DNA from: Streptomyces otsuchiensis
Lineage (GTDB): Bacteria > Actinomycetota > Actinomycetes > Streptomycetales > Streptomycetaceae
Direction of reading: 5' to 3'
Length of the DNA: 32,180 nt
NCBI RefSeq assembly: GCF_004305975.1
Contig: NZ_BHZI01000023.1
Location: forward strand, 1 to 32,180
Part shown: positions 15,984-32,157 of the stretch, in pieces
Position numbering within the stretch: position 1 is the stretch's first letter
How the letters are laid out: each line of letters begins with the position of its first letter
The notes under the pieces: model-generated
The model's database searches: none
Told to the model about the DNA's origin: nothing
Seen by the model: the letters and a program-made list of their open reading frames with translations, nothing else
Program-made: the position numbers and the translations under genes

Positions 15984-16910
15984 TCAGGCGGTGGCCGGCA
16001 CCGGGATCAGGGTCACGGTGCTGTGGAAGATCTCCTGGTCGTCCTGGCGGGCGCTGACCCGGACCGTTCCGGATTCCGGGGAGCCCTCCACCTCCAGCCA
16101 GCAGGGCGCGTCCAGTTCGGCGTAGCGGACGAAGGCGGAGTCCATGCCGACCACGGCGGTCGGTGCGGGGTGGGCCGCCGCGAGCGCGGCCTGGCGGGCG
16201 CCCTCCAGCAGCAGCATGCCGGGCACATGGTCGACGAGGTGGTCGAAGAGGACCGGGTGGGCGGGGTCGACCCGCAACTGCCAGCGGCCGGGCTGGTCGG
16301 TGGCGGCGAGCACCACGTCCTCGAAGCGGTCCCGGCCGAACCGCGACCGGCCTGCCGGAGGGGGCAGCGGCACGGCCTGCGCGGTGGCGTCGGCGGCGTC
16401 GGCGTAGCGGCCCCGCAGCCGGTTGTAGACGGTGCGGTCCTGGATGGTGAAGCGGGTGCGGGCGGCGGCCAGCGGCCGGCCGTCGCGCTCCACGTCGACG
16501 TGGAGGGATATCGCCGACGCCCGGTCCCGCCGGTACTTGACGTCCTCGCAGGTGATGTGGAGTTCGAGCCCGGCCGGGGAACCGTCGGCGAGGGCGGCGC
16601 CCGGGTCCATCACCCAGTCGAAGTCCTTCCACAGCAGCTGGTGGCCCTCCGGTACCCGGTAGGCGGCGTGGGAGAGCAGGGGCAGGGTCTGGCGGACGGT
16701 CTCGCTGAGCAGCAGCGGGTCGTGCAGGCCGAGCCGGCTGACGTAGAAGGGGTGCGCGGCGGGCCACTCCGCCGTCACGGTGAAGCGGTCGGGCGCGGTC
16801 CGCCACCAGGTGCGCAGCAGCACTTCGTCACGGTTTGTCTTGTGGGTGCTAACGGGTGAAACCCTCTCAAAAAGGGTACCGGCGTCGCGCTGAGCGGGCT
16901 GGACGGGCAT
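15984..16910 (-). CDS. gamma-butyrolactone biosynthesis protein, AfsA/ScbA family
   Basis: The key enzyme of GBL autoregulator synthesis. AfsA joins a beta-ketoacyl group to dihydroxyacetone phosphate. Two AfsA hotdog repeats are visible. The first has STHKTNRDEVLL and the second has LFDHLVDHVPGMLLLEGARQ, both hallmark sequences of the family. The protein is 308 residues, as usual. The ATG at 16910 has AAGGGG 7 nt upstream; an in-frame start further up (16952) has no better signal. It is divergent from a GBL-receptor-type TetR gene, exactly as in scbA/scbR, and the shared 140-bp gap carries an AT-rich promoter/operator. It probably makes the signal that releases the receptor. Confidence 0.93.
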   Translation of the reverse strand: MPVQPAQRDAGTLFERVSPVSTHKTNRDEVLLRTWWRTAPDRFTVTAEWPAAHPFYVSRLGLHDPLLLSETVRQTLPLLSHAAYRVPEGHQLLWKDFDWVMDPGAALADGSPAGLELHITCEDVKYRRDRASAISLHVDVERDGRPLAAARTRFTIQDRTVYNRLRGRYADAADATAQAVPLPPPAGRSRFGRDRFEDVVLAATDQPGRWQLRVDPAHPVLFDHLVDHVPGMLLLEGARQAALAAAHPAPTAVVGMDSAFVRYAELDAPCWLEVEGSPESGTVRVSARQDDQEIFHSTVTLIPVPATA

Positions 16911-16999
16911 GGTGATTCCCCTTGATGCGGTGGCTCTCGAATGGGCACGCACAGGTGGAGCGAAGCGCTCGCGATGTTCGCGGTGGCGCCGATGCGAAT

Positions 17000-17029
17000 A
17001 ACATAGAGGTCATTCTCTTTCTTTGTCTA
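17000..17029 (-). promoter_or_regulatory. afsA promoter with ARE-like operator
   Basis: On the minus strand TAGACA (17029-17024), 18 nt, TATGTT (17005-17000) is a good promoter for the afsA gene. Between the hexamers lies ACATAGAG-N6-CTCTTTCT (17001-17022 on the plus strand), a 22-bp pseudo-palindrome with 6 of 8 paired positions, similar in size to GBL-receptor sites (AREs). The words ACAAAGAAA and CTCTAT (minus strand) recur at 29304-29334. Confidence 0.55.
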
Positions 17030-17050: not shown

Positions 17051-17806
17051 ATGGCACGGCAACGGCAGGAGCGCGCGGAACGGACGAGGGCCGCGCTCAT
17101 CACAGCGGCCGCGGAGCTCTTCGACCAGGGCGGATACCACGGCGTGGGGCTTAACGCGATCCTCCAGCGGGCCGGGCTGACCACCGGCGCGATGTACTTC
17201 CATTTCAAGTCAAAGGAGGAGCTGGCCCGCGCGGTCATCGTCAACCAGGCCGACGAACTGCAGTGGACCAGGGAGAAGCAGGGCCTCCAGCAGCTCATCG
17301 ACGTCTGCCAGTACCTGGCGGCCCAGATGCGCTCCGACGTGTTGTTCCGGGCGGGCGTCCGGCTCGCCGTCGAGCAGAACGAGGCCAACCTGCTCGACTA
17401 CTCGATCTACGACTGGTGGGCCCAGCAGTTCCACGTGCACCTCGTCGAGGCCCGTGAGCTGGGACAACTGCGTCCGGAGGTGAACGAGACCGCGTTCGCC
17501 CAGGTCATGGTCGCCTCCTTCACCGGGACGCAGATCATGTCGCGGCTCGCCGACAGCTGGTCCGGTCTGCCCGAGCGCATAGAGGCGATGCTTCGCTGTC
17601 TGCTTCCCGCCCTCGCCCCGCCCGGGGTCCTCGCCACCCTGGAGCTGTCGGGGAAGCCCCTCGACGAGGTGGCGCCTCGGGGCGACGCCGCAGGTGAGAG
17701 CGCCGGGGCCGGACCCGACCCGGGCGAGGACGCCGGACGCACACCGAGTGAAGACGCCGGACACACCCCGGGCGGCGACACCGACGGCGACGGAGCGGGC
17801 CGATGA
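17051..17806 (+). CDS. TetR-family gamma-butyrolactone receptor
   Basis: A DNA-binding repressor expected to be released by the GBL made by its divergent neighbour. The N-terminal HTH (LNAILQRAGLTTGAMYFHFK) and the following KEELA match ScbR/ArpA-type receptors; the ligand domain keeps RAGVRLAVEQ. The ATG at 17051 has AAGGGAG 7 nt upstream. The protein is 251 residues, longer than the usual 215-235, because of a low-complexity acidic tail (from about residue 212) that includes a 24-bp in-frame duplication at 17726-17773 (EDAGRTPS / EDAGHTPG). The stop overlaps the next ATG (17803), so it is coupled to the epimerase-like gene. It probably binds the ARE-like sites at 17000-17029 and 29304-29334. 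Confidence 0.9.
   Translation: MARQRQERAERTRAALITAAAELFDQGGYHGVGLNAILQRAGLTTGAMYFHFKSKEELARAVIVNQADELQWTREKQGLQQLIDVCQYLAAQMRSDVLFRAGVRLAVEQNEANLLDYSIYDWWAQQFHVHLVEARELGQLRPEVNETAFAQVMVASFTGTQIMSRLADSWSGLPERIEAMLRCLLPALAPPGVLATLELSGKPLDEVAPRGDAAGESAGAGPDPGEDAGRTPSEDAGHTPGGDTDGDGAGR
17726..17773 (+). repeat. 24-bp in-frame tandem duplication in the TetR tail
   Basis: Two adjacent 24-bp copies (17726-17749 and 17750-17773) encode EDAGRTPS and EDAGHTPG in the C-terminal tail of the receptor-type regulator, outside the conserved fold. Confidence 0.75.
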
Positions 17807-18756
17807 GACCGCTCCGCGTGGTGCTGACCGGCCCCACCGGCTTCGTCGGCCGGGCGGTGCTCGGCCGGCTGCTGGACCAGCGGGACTCCGGCCGGGTGGC
17901 GGAGGTACGGGCCGTGACCCGCCGCGTTCCGGCCGACCGGCCCCCGGCGGCGGGCGTCGAGTGGTGGCCGGCGGACCTGTCCGACGCCGGGCAACTGGCC
18001 GGTGCAGCCGACGGCGCCGACGTCGTGATCCACCTCGCCTGCCGGGTCGACGGCTCGCCCGCCGACTGCGAGCGGACCAACGTCGACGGCACCCGGGCGC
18101 TGATCGCCGAGGCCCGGCGCGGCGGCGTGCGGCGCGTCGTCCAGCTGTCCACCGCCGCGGTGTACGGGCCCGGCCCGCACCGGGGCATACCCGTCGACGG
18201 AGTCGTGGCGGCGCCGGTGTCGGCGGCCAGCCGCACCCGGCTGGCCGCCGAGGGGATCGCCCGGGAGGCGGGCGCGACCGTGCTGCGGCCCGGACTCGTC
18301 CTGGGCGTGGGCGACCGCTGGGTGGTCCCCGCCCTCGCCGAGCTGCGGCGCCGGGTCCCCTCCGGCTGGGACGGCGGACGCGGCCTGCTCTCCGCTGTCG
18401 CGGTGGAGGACCTCGCCGCGCTCGTCACCACCCTGGCCACCGGGCCGGAACAGCCGCCCGAGGGCGTCCACCACGCCAGCCACCCGGAGCCGGTGCGCGC
18501 CGGCGACCTGCTGGCCGCGCTCGTCGAGCTGGACATCCTGCCCGCCGTCGACGGCGACCTGCCCTGGGAACGCTGCCTGGAACAGCTCCGCCGCACCGAA
18601 GGCCGCATCAGCGAGCGCCAGTTCGCCCTGCTGGCACGAGACCACTGGTACGAGAGCACGGCGATCTGGCGCCGTGCCGGATGCGCCCCCGGGCCCGGAC
18701 CGTTGCACCGGCTCGCCGCGGCGGCGCCCTGGTACCGGCGCGAGCTGCGCGGCTGA
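17803..18756 (+). CDS. NAD-dependent epimerase/dehydratase-like protein (active-site residues altered)
   Basis: An extended SDR with a Rossmann nucleotide site TGPTGFVG (residues 9-16) and the STAAVYG strand (residues 116-122). Genes of this family are often found beside afsA/receptor pairs, and a role in trimming or reducing the GBL is plausible. The catalytic YxxxK is not preserved: the aligned stretch reads ASRTRLAAE, with Ala142 in place of Tyr and Arg146 in place of Lys. It may have a changed mechanism, be a binding protein, or use other residues. It is 317 residues and is coupled to the TetR gene by a 4-nt overlap. The next gene starts 245 bp later. Confidence 0.8.
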   Translation: MRPLRVVLTGPTGFVGRAVLGRLLDQRDSGRVAEVRAVTRRVPADRPPAAGVEWWPADLSDAGQLAGAADGADVVIHLACRVDGSPADCERTNVDGTRALIAEARRGGVRRVVQLSTAAVYGPGPHRGIPVDGVVAAPVSAASRTRLAAEGIAREAGATVLRPGLVLGVGDRWVVPALAELRRRVPSGWDGGRGLLSAVAVEDLAALVTTLATGPEQPPEGVHHASHPEPVRAGDLLAALVELDILPAVDGDLPWERCLEQLRRTEGRISERQFALLARDHWYESTAIWRRAGCAPGPGPLHRLAAAAPWYRRELRG

Positions 18757-23009: not shown

Positions 23010-24710
23010 ATGAACACGCAGCCGACATCGCAGAACGCGCCCACGTCGCAGGACGACCAGTGGCAGAACCACTGGCAGGCACGGCGCGACCCCTTCTTCC
23101 AGGAGTGCCTCGCGGCCCGCCAGGACCTGCTCGCCGACCTCAAGGACCCGGCCGCCGCGCAGGCCCGGGTACTGGCCGACCTCATCGACATCGGGGCCGG
23201 CTCCCTGCACTGGAAGGAGCAGGGGTACGACGCGGTCGTCGCCGACCCGTCGACCTTCCGGTCCGTCCTGCCCGTGATGCGTTACGACGACTACGCCGAG
23301 CAGATCGACCGCGAGACCCGGACCAAGGGCGGCGTCCTCTCCTGCAGCCCGGTGCTGCGCTGGCTCAAGACCAGCGGGACGACCGGCACCCCCAAGCGCG
23401 TCCCGTACACCCTGCACTGGCTGCTGAAGTACCGGATACCGGCGATGAAGGCCATGTGGGGCACCTATCTGGAGCTCCACCCGGAGATCCTCGCGCACCC
23501 CTGGGCCACGCTGGACACCCAGACGGTCCGTGAGGACGTGTACGACTTCGTGCACGGGGTCGAGCACCAGGCGATCAGCAACCGGCACCCGCAGATCAAC
23601 AGCCGGGACTGGAACCCGCCCTGGTACACGTCGCCCTGGTTCGGCCCGGACACCCCCACCAGCCACTCGGGCCGGATGTACCACCGGGTGCGGCACCTGG
23701 TCGGGCGGCAGCTGCACTACATCTCGGCGATCAACCCCAGCACCCTGGTCTCGCTGCGTGACCTGATCGCGGAGTTCGGCGCCGACCTGGTCCGTGACCT
23801 GCGCGAGGGCACCCTGGAGGGCCGGCCGTACGCCGAGCCCGACGAGGTGGCGGCCCGGCACCTGGAAGGCGTCCTGGCCCAGGACGAGTTCAGCCTGGTC
23901 GACGTCTGGCCGTCGCTGACCCTGTACAGCTGCTGGCTGTCCGCCTCCGCGGAGCTGTACCGGCCGAGGCTGGAAGCCGTTCTGCCCGGTGTCGCCAAGC
24001 TGCCGTTCATGAGCTGCGGCACCGAGGGCGTCACCACCATCCCCGTGGACGACACGCTCGACAGCCAGCCGCTCGCGGTCAGCCAGGCGTACTTCGAGTT
24101 CGTCCCGGCCGAAGTGCCGCTGGGCGAACTGCTGGACGCGGGGGAGCGGATCGAGACGCTGCTGCATGACGAGGTGGAGGCGGGCCGCGACTACCACCTG
24201 ATCATGTCGCAGGGGAACGGGCACGCCCGGCTGTGGACCGGCGACATCTACCGCGTCGACCGGATCGTCGACGGCACGCCCTGGGTGCACTTCACCCACC
24301 GCGACGGCGTCTTCCACTCCTTCACCGGCGAGAAGATCACCGAGGGCCAGGTCACCCAGGCGATCCGGCAGGGTCTGGCGGCCGGCGGCCTGGACACCGG
24401 TCTCTACATGTGCGGCCCGCGCTGGGGAGGGCTGCCCTCCTACGCGGTCGTCGTCGAGGTGCCCAGCCCCGCCGAGGAACTGGACCGCGAGCTGTCCGCC
24501 GGCATCGACCGGGAACTGTCCACCATCAACATCGAGTACGCCTCCAAGCGGGACAGCAGCCGCCTCGCCGGTCTGCGGGTGCGCACGGTGCGGCAGGGCG
24601 CGATCGCCGCCTACGTCGAGTCCCGGCGGCAGCAGGGCAACTCCACCCAGTACAAGTACAAGCCCTTCCAGCGGGACAGCGACTTCGTCGAGGCGGTTCT
24701 CACCCACTGA
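23010..24710 (+). CDS. GH3-family acyl-adenylating amide synthetase
   Basis: A member of the GH3 auxin-responsive promoter family (PF03321), enzymes of the ANL superfamily that adenylate a carboxylic acid and join it to an amino acid or amine. ATP-site words are visible: LKTSGTTGTPKRVPYT (motif 1), PFMSCGTEGVTTIPV (in the place of the plant motif around Ser-Ser-Glu) and RLWTGDIYRVD (motif 3). C-terminal YASKRDSSRL and QYKYKPFQRD complete the fold. The protein is 566 residues, the normal length. The ATG has GAGGAGAG 5 nt upstream. It is the first gene of the biosynthetic run (23010-29231) and is the best candidate for an amide-forming step. Which acid and which amine cannot be told from sequence. 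Confidence 0.85.
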   Translation: MNTQPTSQNAPTSQDDQWQNHWQARRDPFFQECLAARQDLLADLKDPAAAQARVLADLIDIGAGSLHWKEQGYDAVVADPSTFRSVLPVMRYDDYAEQIDRETRTKGGVLSCSPVLRWLKTSGTTGTPKRVPYTLHWLLKYRIPAMKAMWGTYLELHPEILAHPWATLDTQTVREDVYDFVHGVEHQAISNRHPQINSRDWNPPWYTSPWFGPDTPTSHSGRMYHRVRHLVGRQLHYISAINPSTLVSLRDLIAEFGADLVRDLREGTLEGRPYAEPDEVAARHLEGVLAQDEFSLVDVWPSLTLYSCWLSASAELYRPRLEAVLPGVAKLPFMSCGTEGVTTIPVDDTLDSQPLAVSQAYFEFVPAEVPLGELLDAGERIETLLHDEVEAGRDYHLIMSQGNGHARLWTGDIYRVDRIVDGTPWVHFTHRDGVFHSFTGEKITEGQVTQAIRQGLAAGGLDTGLYMCGPRWGGLPSYAVVVEVPSPAEELDRELSAGIDRELSTINIEYASKRDSSRLAGLRVRTVRQGAIAAYVESRRQQGNSTQYKYKPFQRDSDFVEAVLTH

Positions 24711-24843
24711 CGCCCGCGAACGACCCGACCGCCCCGCACGCTCCGCAAGCTCCACCGCTTCACCCGCTCAATCCGATCCACCTGATCCACCCCCAATCCG
24801 CCGGCTGACCCGTCCGGGTCGCCCGGCGCGCGACCGAGGAGTG

Positions 24844-25731
24844 ATGAACGTGATCGAGACCATGAGGCCGCCGCAGAACATCCGCCGCGAGATCATCGAC
24901 GTGCCGTGCGACGACGCCCGGCTCGCCCTGCACGTGTGGCGTCCGCAGCACACCAAGGGCGCCGTCTTCTACTTCCACGGGCTCCAGAGCCACGCCGGAT
25001 GGCTGTGGGAGGTCGGGCCGCGGTTCGCCGACAACGACATCGCCTTCTTCGTGCTGGACCGGCGCGGCAGCGGCATCAGTCCCGGCCCGCGCCACGAACT
25101 GCCCGGCGCCGACACCCTGCTGGACGACTACGCCCGGGCCGTCGCCGCGGTGCGGCAGACCATCGGCGAGTCCACGCCCCTCACGCTGTTCGGCCACTGC
25201 CTCGGCGGCTCCTTCCTGGCCGCCCTGCTCTGCGACGACGGGTTCACCACCTCCTACGACAGCGCGGTGTTCTGCTCCTCCTGGCTGGGCCGGATGCACG
25301 CCACCCTGGGCGTGGAGGAGCGCGCGGCGCTGGCCACCGGACCCGGCACCGAACTCTGGGACGCGGGCCTGCGGTCCTCCGACTTCACCGACGAGGTCAA
25401 GTACCGGCACTTCATCGACAACGACGACCTGGCGGTACGGCAGGTGACCCGGCGCTCGCGTGCCGTGCTGCTGGACCTGGAACGCCGGTACCTGGACCCG
25501 GCCCGTCGGCCCCGGGCGGTCCCCTCGGCCACGTTCGTCTCCGGGATGACCGATCCGATCGTGGACCTCGACGCCGCGCACTCCGTCTTCCAGCAGCTGG
25601 TCTCGGGGCGTGGGGCGCAGATGAAGTTCCCCACCGACAAGCACTACCTCTTCTACACCGGCGTCAGTGACGACCTGGTCGACTGGACCTCCACGCACAC
25701 CCTGCTCCAGGGGGTGAACCGCGGTGCCTGA
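24844..25731 (+). CDS. alpha/beta hydrolase with a cysteine nucleophile
   Basis: An alpha/beta-hydrolase fold protein of 295 residues. The oxyanion strand is FYFHGLQSHAG, and the nucleophile elbow is GHCLGG, with Cys119 where most members have Ser. The acid is probably the Asp in SGMTDPIVD and the base the His in DKHYLF. A Cys triad is seen in dienelactone hydrolases and PHA synthases and favours acyl transfer or thioester chemistry over simple ester hydrolysis. The start is uncertain: a GAGGAG lies only 2 nt before ATG 24844 and 8 nt before GTG 24850. It follows the GH3 gene by 133 bp and overlaps the next gene by 8 nt. It might take up or release the GH3 acyl product (inference). Confidence 0.83.
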   Translation: MNVIETMRPPQNIRREIIDVPCDDARLALHVWRPQHTKGAVFYFHGLQSHAGWLWEVGPRFADNDIAFFVLDRRGSGISPGPRHELPGADTLLDDYARAVAAVRQTIGESTPLTLFGHCLGGSFLAALLCDDGFTTSYDSAVFCSSWLGRMHATLGVEERAALATGPGTELWDAGLRSSDFTDEVKYRHFIDNDDLAVRQVTRRSRAVLLDLERRYLDPARRPRAVPSATFVSGMTDPIVDLDAAHSVFQQLVSGRGAQMKFPTDKHYLFYTGVSDDLVDWTSTHTLLQGVNRGA

Positions 25732-26899
25732 GGCAGGACGGGCCCGGCTCTACCACGTAGAGCTGCCCATGCGGACCTCCTTCGACCACCCGGCGGCCCG
25801 GCGCCGCACCTCCGACAGCCTGCTGCTGAGCCTGTCGGTGGGCGGAGTGACCGGCCTGGGGGAGTGCGCTCCCCGGTCGTACGTCACCGGCGAGACCACG
25901 GCCAGCGTGCGCACCGCGCTGCAACGGGTCGACCTCCCGGCGCTGTTCGCCCGGCTGACCGGGCGGCCGCCGCAGGAGTGGCCCGGTCTTCTGCACCGGC
26001 TCGGCTTCGCCCGCTGCTTCGGCGTCGACGGCGGCAACAACCTGCTCTGCCTGCTGGAGACCGCCGTACTCGACTGGCTCGGCCGCCGCCTGGGAGTCCC
26101 TGCGGGACGGCTGCTGCCCGGCACGCCCGGCATGGTCGGCACGCCCGGCATGGCCGGCGCGCTCGGCGGCGAGCGGGAGACCGGAACCCTCCCGGTCTCC
26201 CAGGTGCTCGATCTCAGCCTGGAGACCGACGAGTTCCTGGCGACCCGTGGCCCCTTCCACTTCGTGAAGATCAAGGCGTCGGACGATCTGGAGCGCGACG
26301 CCCGCACCGTGCGCACCATCCGCGAGAAGCTCGGCGACGACCTGCCGATCATGGTCGACGCCAACATGAGCTGGACCGCCGCGGAGGCGATCGGCCACGC
26401 CCGCCGCCTGCGGACGGCCGGGGTCGACTACGTGGAGGAGCCGCTGCCCAAGGGCTCCTGGGAAGGGCTGCGCGCGCTGCGCCGGGACGGGGCGGTGCGC
26501 GTGATGCTGGACGAGTCGGTCTGCACGTCCCGGGACGCCCGGAACGCGATCGCCGCCGAGGCGTGCGACGCGTTCAACATCCGGGTGTCGAAGAACGGCG
26601 GGCCGCTCCCGGCGGCCCGGCTCGCCGCCCAGGCCCGGGAGCACGGGCTCCGGTTCCAGTTCGGGGTCCAGGTCGCCGAGGTGGGACCGCTGATCAACGC
26701 CGGCCGGGCGGTGGCCTTCGGCCACCCGGACGCCATCACCGTCGAGGCCGGCCAGTCCGACCGCTTCTTCCCGGAGATGGTCGTCGTGCCGCCACCGGCC
26801 GTCGACCGTCACTCCAACACCCTTGCTCCGGCGGCCGGTTCGGGCTGGGGCATGGAACTGGCCGACCACGCGGAGCGCTGGGCCGTCAGCGACCTCTGA
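25724..26899 (+). CDS. enolase-superfamily enzyme, muconate-lactonising/dipeptide-epimerase type
   Basis: A TIM-barrel enzyme that abstracts a proton next to a carboxylate. The MLE-subgroup residues are present: KIK (Lys182, Lys184), metal ligands Asp212 (VDAN), Glu238 (VEEPL) and Asp263 (LDES), and Lys290 in NIRVSKNGG as the second acid/base. With Lys on both faces it could be a racemase/epimerase, a lactonising enzyme or a dehydratase. The GTG at 25724 overlaps the upstream stop by 8 nt and has GGGGG just before it. The protein is 391 residues. An 18-bp tandem duplication (26120-26155) adds GTPGMVGTPGMAG to the loop before the barrel. It works between the Cys-hydrolase and the FAH-type enzyme. 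Confidence 0.87.
   Translation: MPEAGRARLYHVELPMRTSFDHPAARRRTSDSLLLSLSVGGVTGLGECAPRSYVTGETTASVRTALQRVDLPALFARLTGRPPQEWPGLLHRLGFARCFGVDGGNNLLCLLETAVLDWLGRRLGVPAGRLLPGTPGMVGTPGMAGALGGERETGTLPVSQVLDLSLETDEFLATRGPFHFVKIKASDDLERDARTVRTIREKLGDDLPIMVDANMSWTAAEAIGHARRLRTAGVDYVEEPLPKGSWEGLRALRRDGAVRVMLDESVCTSRDARNAIAAEACDAFNIRVSKNGGPLPAARLAAQAREHGLRFQFGVQVAEVGPLINAGRAVAFGHPDAITVEAGQSDRFFPEMVVVPPPAVDRHSNTLAPAAGSGWGMELADHAERWAVSDL
26120..26155 (+). repeat. 18-bp in-frame tandem duplication
   Basis: Two adjacent 18-bp copies differing at one base (26120-26137 and 26138-26155) within the enolase-superfamily gene, encoding GTPGMV and GTPGMA. Confidence 0.8.
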
Positions 26900-26961
26900 C
26901 CGGTGCCCGGCCGTACACCACCCCGTACCCGGAGTTCCCATCACGGAAAGGCACCAGAACC

Positions 26962-27849
26962 ATGACCGTACTCTTCGAATGCACCTACCGGGGGCGCCGC
27001 CACATCGGCCTCGGACTGCCGCGCGACGGTGAGCCGTTGACCCTCACCCCGCTGGGTGAACGCGACCTGCTGACGCCGCTGGCCGCCGGCGAGGACATCA
27101 CCGAACTGCTGGCCGACGCCGAGTGGTTGACCGTGGCCCCCGCCGAGCGCGACGCGGTCGGGTACCGCCCGCCGCTGCTGCCCGAGCGGCCCGGCGACGC
27201 GCTCGTCGGCGGGTTCATGCAGACCCACAACGTCAAGGTGGACGCGGAGACACCGGCCCAGCCCGCCTGGTTCCTCAAGGGGCTGGGTGACGTCCTGCGC
27301 ACCCCCGGGCAGGAGTTGCGCGCCCCGGCGTCCGCCGTCGCGCTGACCGAGGAGGCGGAGATCGTCCTGGTGTACATCGGCGACGCGGACGGTCTGCCCC
27401 GCTACGTCGGCTACACCTTCGGCAACGACCTCACCGACATCGGCCGCTTCCGTAACCACCGCGGCCACCTCTCCTACGCCAAACTCTGCGACGCGGGAGT
27501 GGCGCCCTGGCTGTTCCTCGGCGAGCCGCCGCACGAGGTCACCGGCCGCGTGACCGTGGAGCGTCATGAAGCCCTCTGTTGGCAGGGGGAGTTCACCACC
27601 GGCACCAAGGCGCTGCACTACGGCCTGGACGCCATCACCGACGAACTCTTCTCCCACCACACCCTGCTCGCCCCGGGCCGGGTGCACTACGTCTACATCG
27701 GCGCCGACCGCAGCAGCTTCCACGACGGCTTCCGGATCGCCGACGGCGACCGCGTCACGCTGGACTTCGAGAGCCACGGCGTCACCGTCTCCAACCCCGT
27801 TCGCCGCGCCTCCCCGGGACCGGCGCCCGCCGCGCGTGAGACGCCGTGA
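26962..27849 (+). CDS. fumarylacetoacetate hydrolase (FAH) family protein
   Basis: A 295-residue protein with a FAH-type C-terminal domain. WFLKGLGDVLRTPGQE and the acidic run LTEEAEIVLVYIG provide the metal-binding strand, and YTFGNDLTDIGRFRNH provides the next Asp. Members cleave C-C bonds of beta-diketones, decarboxylate, or hydrate and tautomerise keto acids. The N-terminal half resembles the small cap domain of the family. The ATG at 26962 has GGAAAGG 11 nt upstream. It is 62 bp after the enolase-superfamily gene and its stop overlaps the GTG of the next gene. The pairing with an enolase-superfamily enzyme suggests work on a keto acid or a lactone (inference). Confidence 0.83.
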   Translation: MTVLFECTYRGRRHIGLGLPRDGEPLTLTPLGERDLLTPLAAGEDITELLADAEWLTVAPAERDAVGYRPPLLPERPGDALVGGFMQTHNVKVDAETPAQPAWFLKGLGDVLRTPGQELRAPASAVALTEEAEIVLVYIGDADGLPRYVGYTFGNDLTDIGRFRNHRGHLSYAKLCDAGVAPWLFLGEPPHEVTGRVTVERHEALCWQGEFTTGTKALHYGLDAITDELFSHHTLLAPGRVHYVYIGADRSSFHDGFRIADGDRVTLDFESHGVTVSNPVRRASPGPAPAARETP

Positions 27850-29303: not shown

Positions 29304-29334
29304 TTGAAAACAAAGAAATCACTCTCTATTGTTT
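29304..29334 (+). promoter_or_regulatory. strong promoter overlapped by an ARE-like dyad
   Basis: TTGAAA (29304-29309), 17 nt, TATTGT (29327-29332) is close to the bacterial consensus. The dyad AAACAA (29308-29313) / TTGTTT (29329-29334) covers the whole spacer and the -10, so a bound repressor would block the promoter. It shares ACAAAGAAA and CTCTAT with the afsA promoter at 17000-17029. This makes it a candidate operator for the GBL receptor, driving the two genes that follow. Confidence 0.6.
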
Positions 29335-29440
29335 CACGTGGATCGGGACGCAGGCCCTTCCGGGGGCACCCACCCGTCGTCGACGGGCGCCCCGATCCCG
29401 AAAGTTCGGCCCGCCCGTAGACGAGGAAGGGACACGAGCC

Positions 29441-30868
29441 ATGGCGAGGGTGTTATCCACGACCGGCGCACCGGCAGCGGCGCGGCCGTCGCGCGACCGT
29501 GCCACCACCGGTGCCGACCACCCCGCCTTCGGCGCGTTCGTGGCGGAGCTGTTCGCCGGGCTTCCTCGCGCCGACCAGCGCCGCTGGGCCCACGCCTACA
29601 CCCGCGGCCTGCTCGTCACCCCCGGCCGGAAGACGACGCGACGGATCGCGGCCCGGGTCTCCGACTCGGCCACCGCCGCGCAGGCGCTGCACCAGTTCGT
29701 CAACGCCAGCCCCTGGGAGTGGCAGCCGGTGCGCGCGCTGCTGGCCGACTGGGTGGTGCGCCGTGCCGCTCCGCGCGCCCTGGTCCTCGGCGCCACGGTG
29801 CTGCCCAAGCGTGGGGACCGCTCCTGCGGAGTGCACCGGCGTTTCGTCCCGGGCGACGGCCGCACGGTCAACTGCCAGCTGGGGTTGGGCGCGTTCCTCA
29901 CCGGACCCGCCGCGGCCGTCCCGGTCGACTGGCGGCTGCTGCTGCCCGGCCCGTGGTCCGACGACCCGCAGGCCCGGAGCCGGGCCCGTATCCCCGGCGA
30001 TGCTCCCGGGTCGGCACGGTCGGCCACCGCGCTGGCGCTGGATCTGGTCGACTCGGCCGGCTCACTGCTTCCCGCCGGAGACGTACGGGCGTTGCCGGTC
30101 CTCGCGGACCTCGACGGCTTCGCGGAGCCGTCGGCCCTGGTCGAAGGGCTCGCCGCGCGAGGCCGGTTCGTGGTGCGGGTGCGCGAAGACCTCGCGCTGC
30201 TGCCCGACCGCCCGGCCGCCGGCCGCTCCGGCGCCGGCCCTCTCCCCGCGCGTGATCTGCTCGGGGCGCACTCGTCCCGGCCCCACCAACTTCCCGCGCC
30301 GACCGGCATCGCGATGGCGCTGGTCCGGCTCCCCGGTACCCCGGCCACCGTCCGGCTGGTCGGCGAGCGACTGCCGGACGGCGCGCTGGGACGGCTCTGG
30401 CTCACCGACCTGACGGACCGCCCACCCCGCGAGCTGGCGGAGGCCGTCCGGCTGGGCACGGCCACCGCCGAGGCGGTGAAGCAGCTCGACGACGTGGGGC
30501 TGCGCGCCTTCGAAGGGCGCTCCTACCCGGGCTGGCACCACCACATGACGCTGGTGTCCGCCGCCCTGGCCTACCGCGCGCTCGGTCACCTCACCCCGCC
30601 GCGCGAGGCCGCACCGCCGCGCGAGGCCACCTCACTGCGCTGGGCCATGCCGCCCCGCGACAGCGCCCGGGGTGTCCGGCGCCCCGCCGCGGACCGGCCG
30701 CCGCGCGGCGGCCAGCTCAGACCGTCGCCCCCGCACACCCGTGCGGCGACGAATCCGGCCAGGCAGCCGGCGATGGCCATGGCCGGGCAGCCGGCGACGA
30801 CTCCGGCAGGGGCCCCGGCGGCCCCACGGCCGGCCCCCGCGACTCCGAGACGAACAGGATGCTCCTGA
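29441..30868 (+). CDS. IS701-transposase-like protein lacking the DDE triad (domesticated?)
   Basis: A 475-residue protein whose fold words match IS701-family transposases: LPKRGDRSCGVHRRFVPGDG followed by NCQLGLGAFL, and the C-terminal DVGLRAFEGRSYPGWHHHMT. The catalytic residues are gone. Where the family has an Asp-Asp-Thr, this has Gly117-Ala118-Thr119. The region that should hold the catalytic Glu reads GTATAEAVKQLD, without the expected W-x-I-E pattern. No terminal inverted repeats or target duplications flank the gene. Residues 381-475 are a Pro/Ala/Arg-rich tail. The ATG at 29441 has GAGGAAGGG 9 nt upstream. Codon 5 is TTA (29453-29455), implying bldA control. It is coupled to the MFS gene (TGATG). 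It is more likely a host-recruited DNA-binding protein of the cluster than a mobile element. Confidence 0.75.
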   Translation: MARVLSTTGAPAAARPSRDRATTGADHPAFGAFVAELFAGLPRADQRRWAHAYTRGLLVTPGRKTTRRIAARVSDSATAAQALHQFVNASPWEWQPVRALLADWVVRRAAPRALVLGATVLPKRGDRSCGVHRRFVPGDGRTVNCQLGLGAFLTGPAAAVPVDWRLLLPGPWSDDPQARSRARIPGDAPGSARSATALALDLVDSAGSLLPAGDVRALPVLADLDGFAEPSALVEGLAARGRFVVRVREDLALLPDRPAAGRSGAGPLPARDLLGAHSSRPHQLPAPTGIAMALVRLPGTPATVRLVGERLPDGALGRLWLTDLTDRPPRELAEAVRLGTATAEAVKQLDDVGLRAFEGRSYPGWHHHMTLVSAALAYRALGHLTPPREAAPPREATSLRWAMPPRDSARGVRRPAADRPPRGGQLRPSPPHTRAATNPARQPAMAMAGQPATTPAGAPAAPRPAPATPRRTGCS

Positions 30869-32157
30869 TGGCCCTTCCCAAGGCGTTCTGGCTGCTGTGG
30901 TGCGGGCAGACCGTAGGCAGGCTCGGCATGCTCGCCCCCGCCTTCCTCGTCCTGTACCTGGAGCAGGAAGGGCTGGTCGAGCCCGGTACGACCCCGCTGG
31001 TCGTCGGCTTCTTCGGCGCCGGAATCCTGCTGTCGGGACTGGTCGGTGGCGCCGTCGCCGACCTGATCGGGCCACGCCGCACGATCATCGCCGCCCAGCC
31101 GGTGACCGCCGTGATGGCGCTCCTGTTCATCGTCTCCGAGAACGTGGTGGCGCTGTGCGCCCTGGCGCTGGCCACCGGTCTGCTGTCGGCCATCGACCGG
31201 CCCGCCGGCGCCGGACTGATCTCCACGATCGTGCCGAGGAAGGACTTCACCAAGGCGTACAGCCTCTTCCTGGTCGGCTTCAACACCGGTATGTCGCTGA
31301 GCCCGATCCTCTCCGGCTTCCTGCTCGAGGTCAGCCCCACCGCCCTCTTCGTGGTCTGGGCGGCGTCCTGCCTGCTCTACGCCGCCCTGGTGTGTGCCGT
31401 GCCCGCCGACGCGCCGCGCCCCGCGGGCCGGCCGACGAGCGCGACGGCCGCGATCAAGTCCGCCGCACGCGGAGTCGCCGAACCCTTCCGCACCCCGGTC
31501 CTGGTCGGCTTCCTGCTGCTGACCTTCCTGCTCGGCTGCGTCTACCTCCAGGTCAACTCCACGCTGCCGCTGGACATGCGGGACAGCGGTCTCACCCCCG
31601 CCAACATCGGCTTCGTCCTGGCGGTCAACGCGGTGCTCTCCATCCTGCTGCTGCCCCTGGTGCCCCGACTGGTCGGCGGCATGCGGGCACACATCCCGCT
31701 GATGCTGGCGGGCGGCCTCATCGCCCTCGGTTTCGGCAGCAACGTCTTCGCCAACGGACTGGTCGCCTTCACCGCCGCGACGCTGATCTGGACGCTCGGG
31801 GAAGTGCTGTGGGCACCGATGTCCGCCACCTTCATCGCCGACCGGGCACCGGCCGACCGCGTCAGCACCTACCAGGGCTCCTACTTCTTCGCCTGGAACG
31901 CGGCGTTCGTGGTCGGCAGCCCGGCCGGACTCGCCCTGGCCCACTCCCAGGGCTACCCGACGCTGTGGATCTCCGTCCTCGGCGTGGGCGTGGTGGTGGT
32001 GATCGGGTTCGCCCTGCTGCCACGGCTGCGGGGGTTCACCCGGGAAGCGGGCGCCGCGCAGGCTCCCGAGACCACCGGCCCCCACGGCGACTCCGTCACC
32101 GGGCCGGACGCCGCGCCCGAACCGCTCACCGCCTCCGCCGAAGCGCCCAGGCCCTGA
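30868..32157 (+). CDS. MFS transporter, probable exporter of the cluster product
   Basis: A 429-residue major facilitator with about twelve hydrophobic segments. GFFGAGILLSGLVGGAVADLI and GPRRT correspond to the loop 2-3 motif; AIDRPAGAGLISTIVP is the motif in TM5. MFS proteins of this type pump out antibiotics and small metabolites by proton antiport. The start ATG at 30868 shares its A with the upstream stop (TGATG) and has AGGA 8 nt before it. The in-frame ATG at 30859 has no ribosome-binding site in front. The C-terminal 45 residues are a hydrophilic Pro/Ala tail. Being coupled to the transposase-like gene, it shares the 29.3-kb promoter, so export may be released by the GBL signal. It ends 23 bp before the window edge. 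Confidence 0.88.
   Translation: MALPKAFWLLWCGQTVGRLGMLAPAFLVLYLEQEGLVEPGTTPLVVGFFGAGILLSGLVGGAVADLIGPRRTIIAAQPVTAVMALLFIVSENVVALCALALATGLLSAIDRPAGAGLISTIVPRKDFTKAYSLFLVGFNTGMSLSPILSGFLLEVSPTALFVVWAASCLLYAALVCAVPADAPRPAGRPTSATAAIKSAARGVAEPFRTPVLVGFLLLTFLLGCVYLQVNSTLPLDMRDSGLTPANIGFVLAVNAVLSILLLPLVPRLVGGMRAHIPLMLAGGLIALGFGSNVFANGLVAFTAATLIWTLGEVLWAPMSATFIADRAPADRVSTYQGSYFFAWNAAFVVGSPAGLALAHSQGYPTLWISVLGVGVVVVIGFALLPRLRGFTREAGAAQAPETTGPHGDSVTGPDAAPEPLTASAEAPRP

Follow-up and report, generated by a model that had tools for sequence, protein, structure and literature searches.

One gamma-butyrolactone (GBL) hormone most likely switches on both its own synthesis and an operon consisting of a retired transposase gene and an export pump gene in Streptomyces otsuchiensis. 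We arrive at this from two related sites, S1 and S2, in a stretch of 32,180 nt of its genome, which was analysed as a whole and is called the window below. S1 lies between an afsA homologue and the gene of an ScbR-family receptor. For S2 the best reading is a second conserved operator within the GBL cassette, placed over the promoter of an IS701-derived gene and the MFS exporter gene coupled to it. We consider it quite probable, with some room left for doubt, that the two are copies of a single ScbR-family operator, in its letters a variant of the GBL autoregulatory element (ARE), and that the receptor represses both and the GBL releases both. The two sites, the dyad that they share, their specificity in the genome, their conservation as a pair and the families of the genes around them are established. 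The features are as follows.

15984-16910, minus strand: afsA homologue, a GBL synthase of the ScbA/BarX family (NF041195, 333.9 bits against a cut-off of 200; PF03756)
16999-17004, plus strand: possible -10 box TAACAT of the receptor-led operon, touching S1, proposed from the sequence and its orthologs
17000-17029, minus strand: putative afsA promoter, TAGACA (17024-17029), 18 nt and TATGTT (17000-17005), enclosing S1
17003-17020, minus strand: operator S1, 18-bp core dyad AAAGAGAATGACCTCTAT, between afsA and the receptor gene (model match 16996-17027)
17051-17806, plus strand: ScbR-family receptor (NF041196, 194.6 bits against a cut-off of 150; TetR N-terminal domain PF00440)
17803-18756, plus strand: NAD-dependent epimerase/dehydratase (PF01370), in the same position in the plasmid cassettes L112 and L115
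18963-19664, plus strand: TetR2, a second ScbR-like regulator (NF041196, 107.1 bits, below the cut-off of 150)
29304-29309, plus strand: putative -35 box TTGAAA of the S2 promoter
29312-29329, plus strand: operator S2, 18-bp core dyad AAAGAAATCACTCTCTAT, at the IS701-like/MFS promoter (32-nt model match 29305-29336)
29327-29332, plus strand: putative -10 box TATTGT of the S2 promoter, into which the 3' half of the dyad extends
29441-30868, plus strand: IS701-like protein (NF033540, 269.7 bits against a cut-off of 150)
30859-32157, plus strand: MFS exporter (PF07690; start at 30859 or 30868)

Searching genome contigs with the cluster's GH3 protein (23010-24710) retrieved 26 loci. The complete cluster, running from afsA through to the MFS gene, is found in L016 (S. 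pseudovenezuelae), L027 (Streptomyces sp. NBC_01481), L081 (genome G052) and L082 (genome G091), and L010 covers its afsA/receptor end. S2 is kept in all four of the orthologous clusters that extend to its position. It lies between the -35 and -10 boxes of the IS701-like/MFS promoter, as this promoter can be read from the sequence alone. Both boxes and their 17-nt spacing had been named in a preliminary description of the window and are present in the sequence; the four orthologs have TTGAAA-17-TATTTT, and their IS701 promoter reads TTGAAAACAAAGA(G/A)(T/G)TCGTTCTCTATTTTTT. The 5' half of S2, AAAGAAA, deviates from the consensus. On the other side of the cluster, the presumed afsA promoter reads TAGACA-18-TATTTT and the candidate -10 box of the receptor operon TAAAAT in L010, L016 and L027. 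The preliminary description assigned S1 to afsA. The site does lie within the afsA promoter, but it also ends about 24 nt 5' of the receptor start and is thus more than an element of the afsA promoter alone.

The same description had started from a word, ACAAAGAAA, followed by CTCTAT in two AT-rich patches, and from a dyad, AAACAA/TTGTTT, laid over the promoter at 29304. All strings it named are found at their positions. ACAAAGAAA occurs in the window only at 17018-17026 (minus strand) and 29310-29318 (plus strand), where dinucleotide shuffles of the window lead one to expect 0.01 occurrences, and no further place in the window pairs it with CTCTAT. A motif search of the whole own genome (6,150,387 bases, 752 contigs) returned ACAAAGAAA with CTCTAT within 3-12 nt only at these two places, and in 294 other genomes of the genus the combination has one match, between afsA-like and receptor genes (L003 in G065). 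Two receptor loci that are more distant, L003 and L051, also have the word itself at the position of S1. When the two AT-rich patches are shuffled with their own composition kept, however, 31 of 3000 pairs (about 1%) share a word of nine or more letters. By itself the word therefore proves little, and relatives must decide.

The relatives decide against the word and the outer dyad. ACAAAGAAA falls out of register once S1 and S2 are aligned on the conserved -10 box and dyad, and it is missing from the five orthologous afsA sites, which read ACAAACAAAAAG (in a longer form, GACAAACAAAAAGAACGACCTCTATTTTATTC). S2 of the window has AAACAA/TTGTTT, whereas its four orthologous counterparts lack it and read TATTTTTT; the conserved dyad is, on this comparison, the inner 18 bp. 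With neither string conserved in orthologs and a shared 9-mer arising in about 1% of shuffled pairs, both were rejected as the common element. A spacing difference of about 4 nt, which had seemed to weaken the match, vanishes upon alignment on CTAT: S1 has two AAAG words, of which the wrong one had been paired with S2, the second being its true partner. The underlying observation of two real and related sites holds.

To describe the sites independently of the window, we collected 38 regions upstream of receptor homologues. In 34 of them a site was found (the exceptions, with no site in the receptor-upstream region, were L063, L011, L022 and L019), and 23 of the sites were used for an alignment, A1, and a sequence-only model, R1. 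Sites were left out of A1 as identical (L010, L027, L036 and L037 to L016; L050 to L049), as near-duplicates (L057 near L061; L055 and L059 near L058), or for other reasons (L060, weak at 27.2 bits; L025, with its best site at an IS701 promoter; L005, 9.4 bits). All training sites stand beside ScbR-type receptor genes of other genomes, and they include no site from the own genome, from an IS701 promoter or from an MFS promoter. Applied to the window as a position weight matrix (PWM), the model gives S1 48.8 bits and S2 31.7 bits, and everything else scores below 12 bits. None of 20,000 shuffles of the S1 patch or of the S2 patch attains the real score. Since the model had seen no S2, this supports the earlier claim that both sites are elements of one kind. 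They are identical at just 17 of 32 positions in register, and another offset scores equally.

As expected of a dyad, S1 still gives 18.8 bits and S2 17.5 bits when the opposite strand is read. The best dyad centre, at column 16.5 with an 18-bp core, is the same in three separate sets of sites (23 receptor-side sites, 7 S2/MFS sites and 12 IS701-promoter sites), and this common centre sets the cores of S1 and S2 at the positions listed above. When R1 was run over the own 6.15-Mb genome at E<=10, it returned exactly two matches: S1 (16997-17026, minus strand; 25 bits, E 1.4e-4), which is the best in the genome, and S2 (29307-29331, plus strand; 12.3 bits, E 1.6). S2 is not significant genome-wide by itself; its weight comes from its being the sole other match, 12 kb from S1, in the same cluster and conserved.

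The pairing of S1 and S2, as detected by the models, recurs in other Streptomyces. In L016, L027, L081 and L082 the PWM finds the same two sites and no others at 12 bits or more (19.5-21.7 kb examined), with S2 at 38.8 bits in L016, L027 and L082 and at 31.5 bits in L081. Seven further genomes were scanned with R1 at E<=1. Those of L016 and L027 and G091 have exactly two matches each, namely S1 and S2; G052 and G135 have one match each; the genome of L025 has four within 18 kb, and that of L011 two, on separate contigs. In G052 the S2 site missed by R1 is recovered by the PWM at 31.5 bits. L011 and L025 represent more distant clusters, in which the exporter has the operator directly, with no IS701 gene in front; elsewhere in L025 an IS701-like gene has an operator site of its own. 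Over the 512,765 nt of the 26 related loci, all nine matches of at least 20 bits are at afsA/receptor, IS701 or MFS promoters. Four further matches of 15-20 bits are all in the Burkholderia/Pseudomonas loci L030 and L032; the stretch examined in these gave no match to afsA or the receptor. These two loci also have the set of GH3, alpha/beta hydrolase, enolase-like and AraD1-like genes that occupies 23010-27849 in the window.

Several other arrangements were encountered along the way. Streptomycetaceae bacterium MP113-05 carries the operator four times within 18 kb, at the promoters of afsA, IS701-like, MFS and receptor genes (L083: 7348-7379, 16162-16193, 6484-6515; L084: 4391-4422). In the genome of L011 (G298), a receptor gene on a different contig has three PWM matches of 22-29 bits in its vicinity (L085: 7476, 8269, 9176). 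The divergent afsA/receptor promoter of L019 and L022 has a different strong palindrome, AATATACCTTCCCGCAGGTATATT; both loci also have the GH3 gene set.

Across the genus, the same two kinds of target appear. R1 was run over 41 genomes, the own included, with stricter filters (E<=0.3), and gave 14 matches in 10 genomes; six of these belong to the training set or duplicate one of its members, and S2 of the window is absent from the list at this setting. All 14 are intergenic, 11 between afsA and receptor genes (S1 of the window among them) and 3 between a second ScbR-like gene of the TetR2 kind and an IS701-like gene. IS701-like genes were present in 19 of 81 genomes at E<=1e-60. From this sample and the plasmid, syntenic and own loci, 34 such genes were compared. 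An operator of at least 20 bits stands just 5' of the gene in 24 of the 28 cases with ScbR/AfsA-type genes nearby and in none of the 6 without (Fisher p 1.6e-4, kinship of the loci being ignored). The counts are 12/15 against 0/4 (p 0.009) in the 81-genome sample without the own genome and G052, and 6/7 against 0/2 in the nine plasmid loci alone, which is not significant (p 0.083). The four exceptions have 19.8 bits (L143), 17.0 bits (L144), no site at 15 bits (L145) and, farther up on a plasmid, 15.1 bits (L113). The target had been described earlier as an export operon. An MFS exporter is indeed there, but in other genomes the second operator goes with the IS701-like gene, whether or not there is an exporter.

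The plasmid loci, ten of which were compared, present the association in a compact form. Five of them (L108, L109, L112, L115 and L117) have the order ScbA, ScbR, SDR/epimerase, TetR and "transposase". L110 keeps this order from ScbR onward with another insertion sequence in between, and L114 and L116 have ScbA, ScbR, TetR and "transposase" genes in a different order. L111 and L113 have no annotated ScbA or ScbR, and L113 has a TetR2-like gene. An operator of at least 23 bits precedes the transposase gene in 8 of the 10 loci, that is in all except L111 and L113. DUF1702 genes are found near the IS701-like gene in 6 of the 10 (L108, L109, L111, L112, L113 and L115), and CRTAC1 or P450 genes in some.

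The product of the gene at 29441 is probably a domesticated transposase that is catalytically dead, as judged from its sequence and from a structural model. It is a single-copy gene (one match in the own genome at E<=1e-10), and no inverted repeat pair of 14 nt or more flanks it in the three loci searched (about 180-490 nt on each side); neither sign of mobility is thus present. The D-D/E-T motif, which we take to hold the first catalytic Asp of IS701, is present in 6/6 reference IS701 proteins. The protein of the window reads LGATVLPKRG there, with G-A-T in place of the motif, and the motif is kept in 0 of the 37 Streptomyces IS701-like proteins compared, the own included. Nine of these retain the first D, E replaces it in two, and E occupies the second position in two (L046 and L099); the protein of the window has neither. 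A different segment, FEGRS..PGWHHHMTLVSAA, is highly conserved in IS701-like proteins. The AlphaFold2 model, built from four sequences, has a mean pLDDT of 57.8, with 178 of 475 residues at 70-90. Because of this low overall confidence we use only its Foldseek match to Tn5 transposase (E 8.2e-9, probability 1.00, TM 0.44-0.50). Further, the stop of the IS701-like gene overlaps the MFS start in a TGATG junction in the window and in the four orthologs, which fits one operon.

It is conceivable, although we would bet against it, that the dead IS701-derived DDE protein is a third core component of the GBL switch in Streptomyces, one that binds DNA. Its gene would be retained next to those of receptor and pseudo-receptor in many Streptomyces genomes and transcribed from the second conserved operator of the cassette, and the hormone would release the protein to act on DNA. 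It might then serve as a second-tier regulator, for example of the neighbouring cluster or of sites resembling transposon ends. A literature search on IS701 or transposase genes under GBL control in Streptomyces, whose coverage mostly did not extend to subscription papers, found no report. The operator would be a variant of something known, and what is presumably new is its recurrent target, the IS701-like gene.

In the usual GBL scheme, the receptor represses without ligand and lets go with ligand. Synthase and receptor of the window both score over their family cut-offs, so we apply this scheme here. The nearest solved relative of the receptor by sequence is AvaR1 (6wp7, E 4.6e-36), and the 17051 receptor is the likely binder of S1 and S2. 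In the absence of signal it would occupy both sites and keep RNA polymerase out; the 18963 protein perhaps joins or replaces it there. When the GBL made by AfsA builds up, the receptor would leave S1 and S2, and signal synthesis, the receptor-led operon and the IS701-like/exporter pair would rise jointly. Given that S1 lies in the afsA promoter at the edge of the receptor -10 box and S2 between the boxes of the IS701/MFS promoter, one signal would open all three. We deduce the binder, the repression, the release by ligand and the transcript starts from these arrangements. What stays of the interpretation first offered for the window is the shared ScbR/GBL-receptor-type operator at both promoters; its letters, its dyad, its canonical ARE, an S1 reserved to afsA and a plain export target do not.

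TetR2 is itself ScbR-like, which makes the binder at the operators uncertain. Rather unlikely, but to be taken seriously, is the reading in which TetR2 is the main binder of S2, a pseudo-receptor answering perhaps to the product of the cluster rather than to the GBL. It is a divergent ScbR-family protein (107 bits) that shares 30 of 54 residues with the receptor in the DNA-binding domain, and its relatives in the four syntenic clusters are 62-66% identical to it. A gene of its type adjoins the operator-IS701 pair in 19 of the 24 operator-bearing loci, the other five being the window and its four orthologs with the gene about 10 kb away, and the three genome-wide R1 matches between TetR2 and IS701 genes point in the same direction. 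Moreover, receptor and pseudo-receptor occupy the same sites in S. filipinensis (available part of PMC7480387), and so do AvaR1 and AvaR2 in S. avermitilis (available part of PMC5744401). However, S2 fits a motif learned beside the receptor gene, and S1 carries the same motif at the receptor's own promoter. TetR2 is possibly a pseudo-receptor that acts as rival or partner binder of S1 and S2, next to the 17051 receptor that we favor.

S2 could also be a relic of an ancestral cassette in which the IS701-like gene was regulated, without importance in the present cluster. Its score in the window is lower than in L016, L027 and L082, although equal to that in L081. We hold this to be improbable, as S2 is conserved in four orthologous clusters and as the exporter of two distant clusters has the site with no IS701 gene directly in front.

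Very doubtful is the version drawn from the preliminary description, in which AAACAA/TTGTTT would be the dyad of a canonical ARE covering the promoter (29308-29334). The letters are present, and their centre is within half a base of the conserved one. Yet the outer arms are lost in the four orthologs, and neither S1 nor S2 has the published half-site letters AAACVGNNBVNNCSGTTT (SfbR) or AWWCCRBBHDDNMSGTWT (AvaR1). The fewest mismatches at constrained positions are 4/14 and 4/17, respectively, for S1 and 4/14 and 5/17 for S2. With at least four mismatches to both 18-bp consensuses, the sites do no better than chance places in the window, the best of which have 3 and 2 mismatches to the SfbR and AvaR1 consensuses. 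A canonical ARE was therefore rejected for both.

Scarcely credible is the notion that S1 and S2 are merely AT-rich promoters of the sigma-70 type which resemble each other by base composition: both have usable -35/-10 boxes and shuffled patch pairs do yield 9-mers, but it was rejected since composition-keeping shuffles never attained either score, the dyad scores on both strands, whole-genome matches are confined to GBL loci and all strong matches in the 26 loci are at the promoters named above.

If the shared receptor operator is real, genes under GBL control become readable from sequence, since the model is specific enough to match just two places in the own genome and two in each of three relatives. 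A gene that carries a transposase annotation, and is easily overlooked for that reason, would turn out to be a regular hormone-controlled member of GBL loci. The letters of the operator would, in addition, separate GBL systems that coexist in one cell, because the same genome has a perfect canonical ARE at another locus. This second afsA/ScbR locus (contig C2, L005, about 18.6-21 kb) contains AAACCGCCCGGCCCGTTT, with 0 mismatches, and the own-genome scan with R1 at E<=10 found no match in it. The cell thus seems to contain two GBL systems whose operators differ in their letters, and this difference would keep them apart.

In comparison with known systems, S1 and S2 have the architecture of the ARE but not its letters. 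The AREs of SfbR/SfbR2, AvaR1/AvaR2 and ScbR are likewise AT-rich dyads at promoter boxes of a GBL locus; the published dyad is 18 bp long for SfbR and AvaR1, and one type of site serves several promoters (available parts of PMC7480387, PMC5744401 and PMC4595836). The core of S1 and S2 is an 18-bp dyad with the published spacing of half-sites, and it is located at the promoters of synthase, receptor and target, insofar as promoters were recognized by sequence. The letters are AAArnGA..(C)TCTATt, against AAACnG..CnGTTT in the published ARE. Table 1 of PMC4595836, in its available part, has 13 possible ScbR binding sites of S. coelicolor. Ten of them, with soyB1, afsK and narG3 left out of the scoring, reach at most 6.1 bits on the core model, against 29.4 bits for S1 and 22.6 bits for S2.

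The closest counterparts of the window are the GBL cassettes of Streptomyces plasmids (L108, L109, L112, L115 and L117), which have the same gene order and two operators. The window differs from them in two ways: its second TetR gene (18963) is separated from the S2-IS701 unit by other genes over about 9.6 kb, and its IS701-like gene has an MFS gene coupled to it. With IS701 family transposases (NF033540, DDE_5), finally, the 29441 product shares the family score, the Tn5-type fold and the FEGRS..GWH(H/R)H motif. Unlike them, its gene is present in a single copy, has lost D-D/E-T, shows no inverted repeats in the flanks searched, has an operator at its promoter and adjoins GBL genes.
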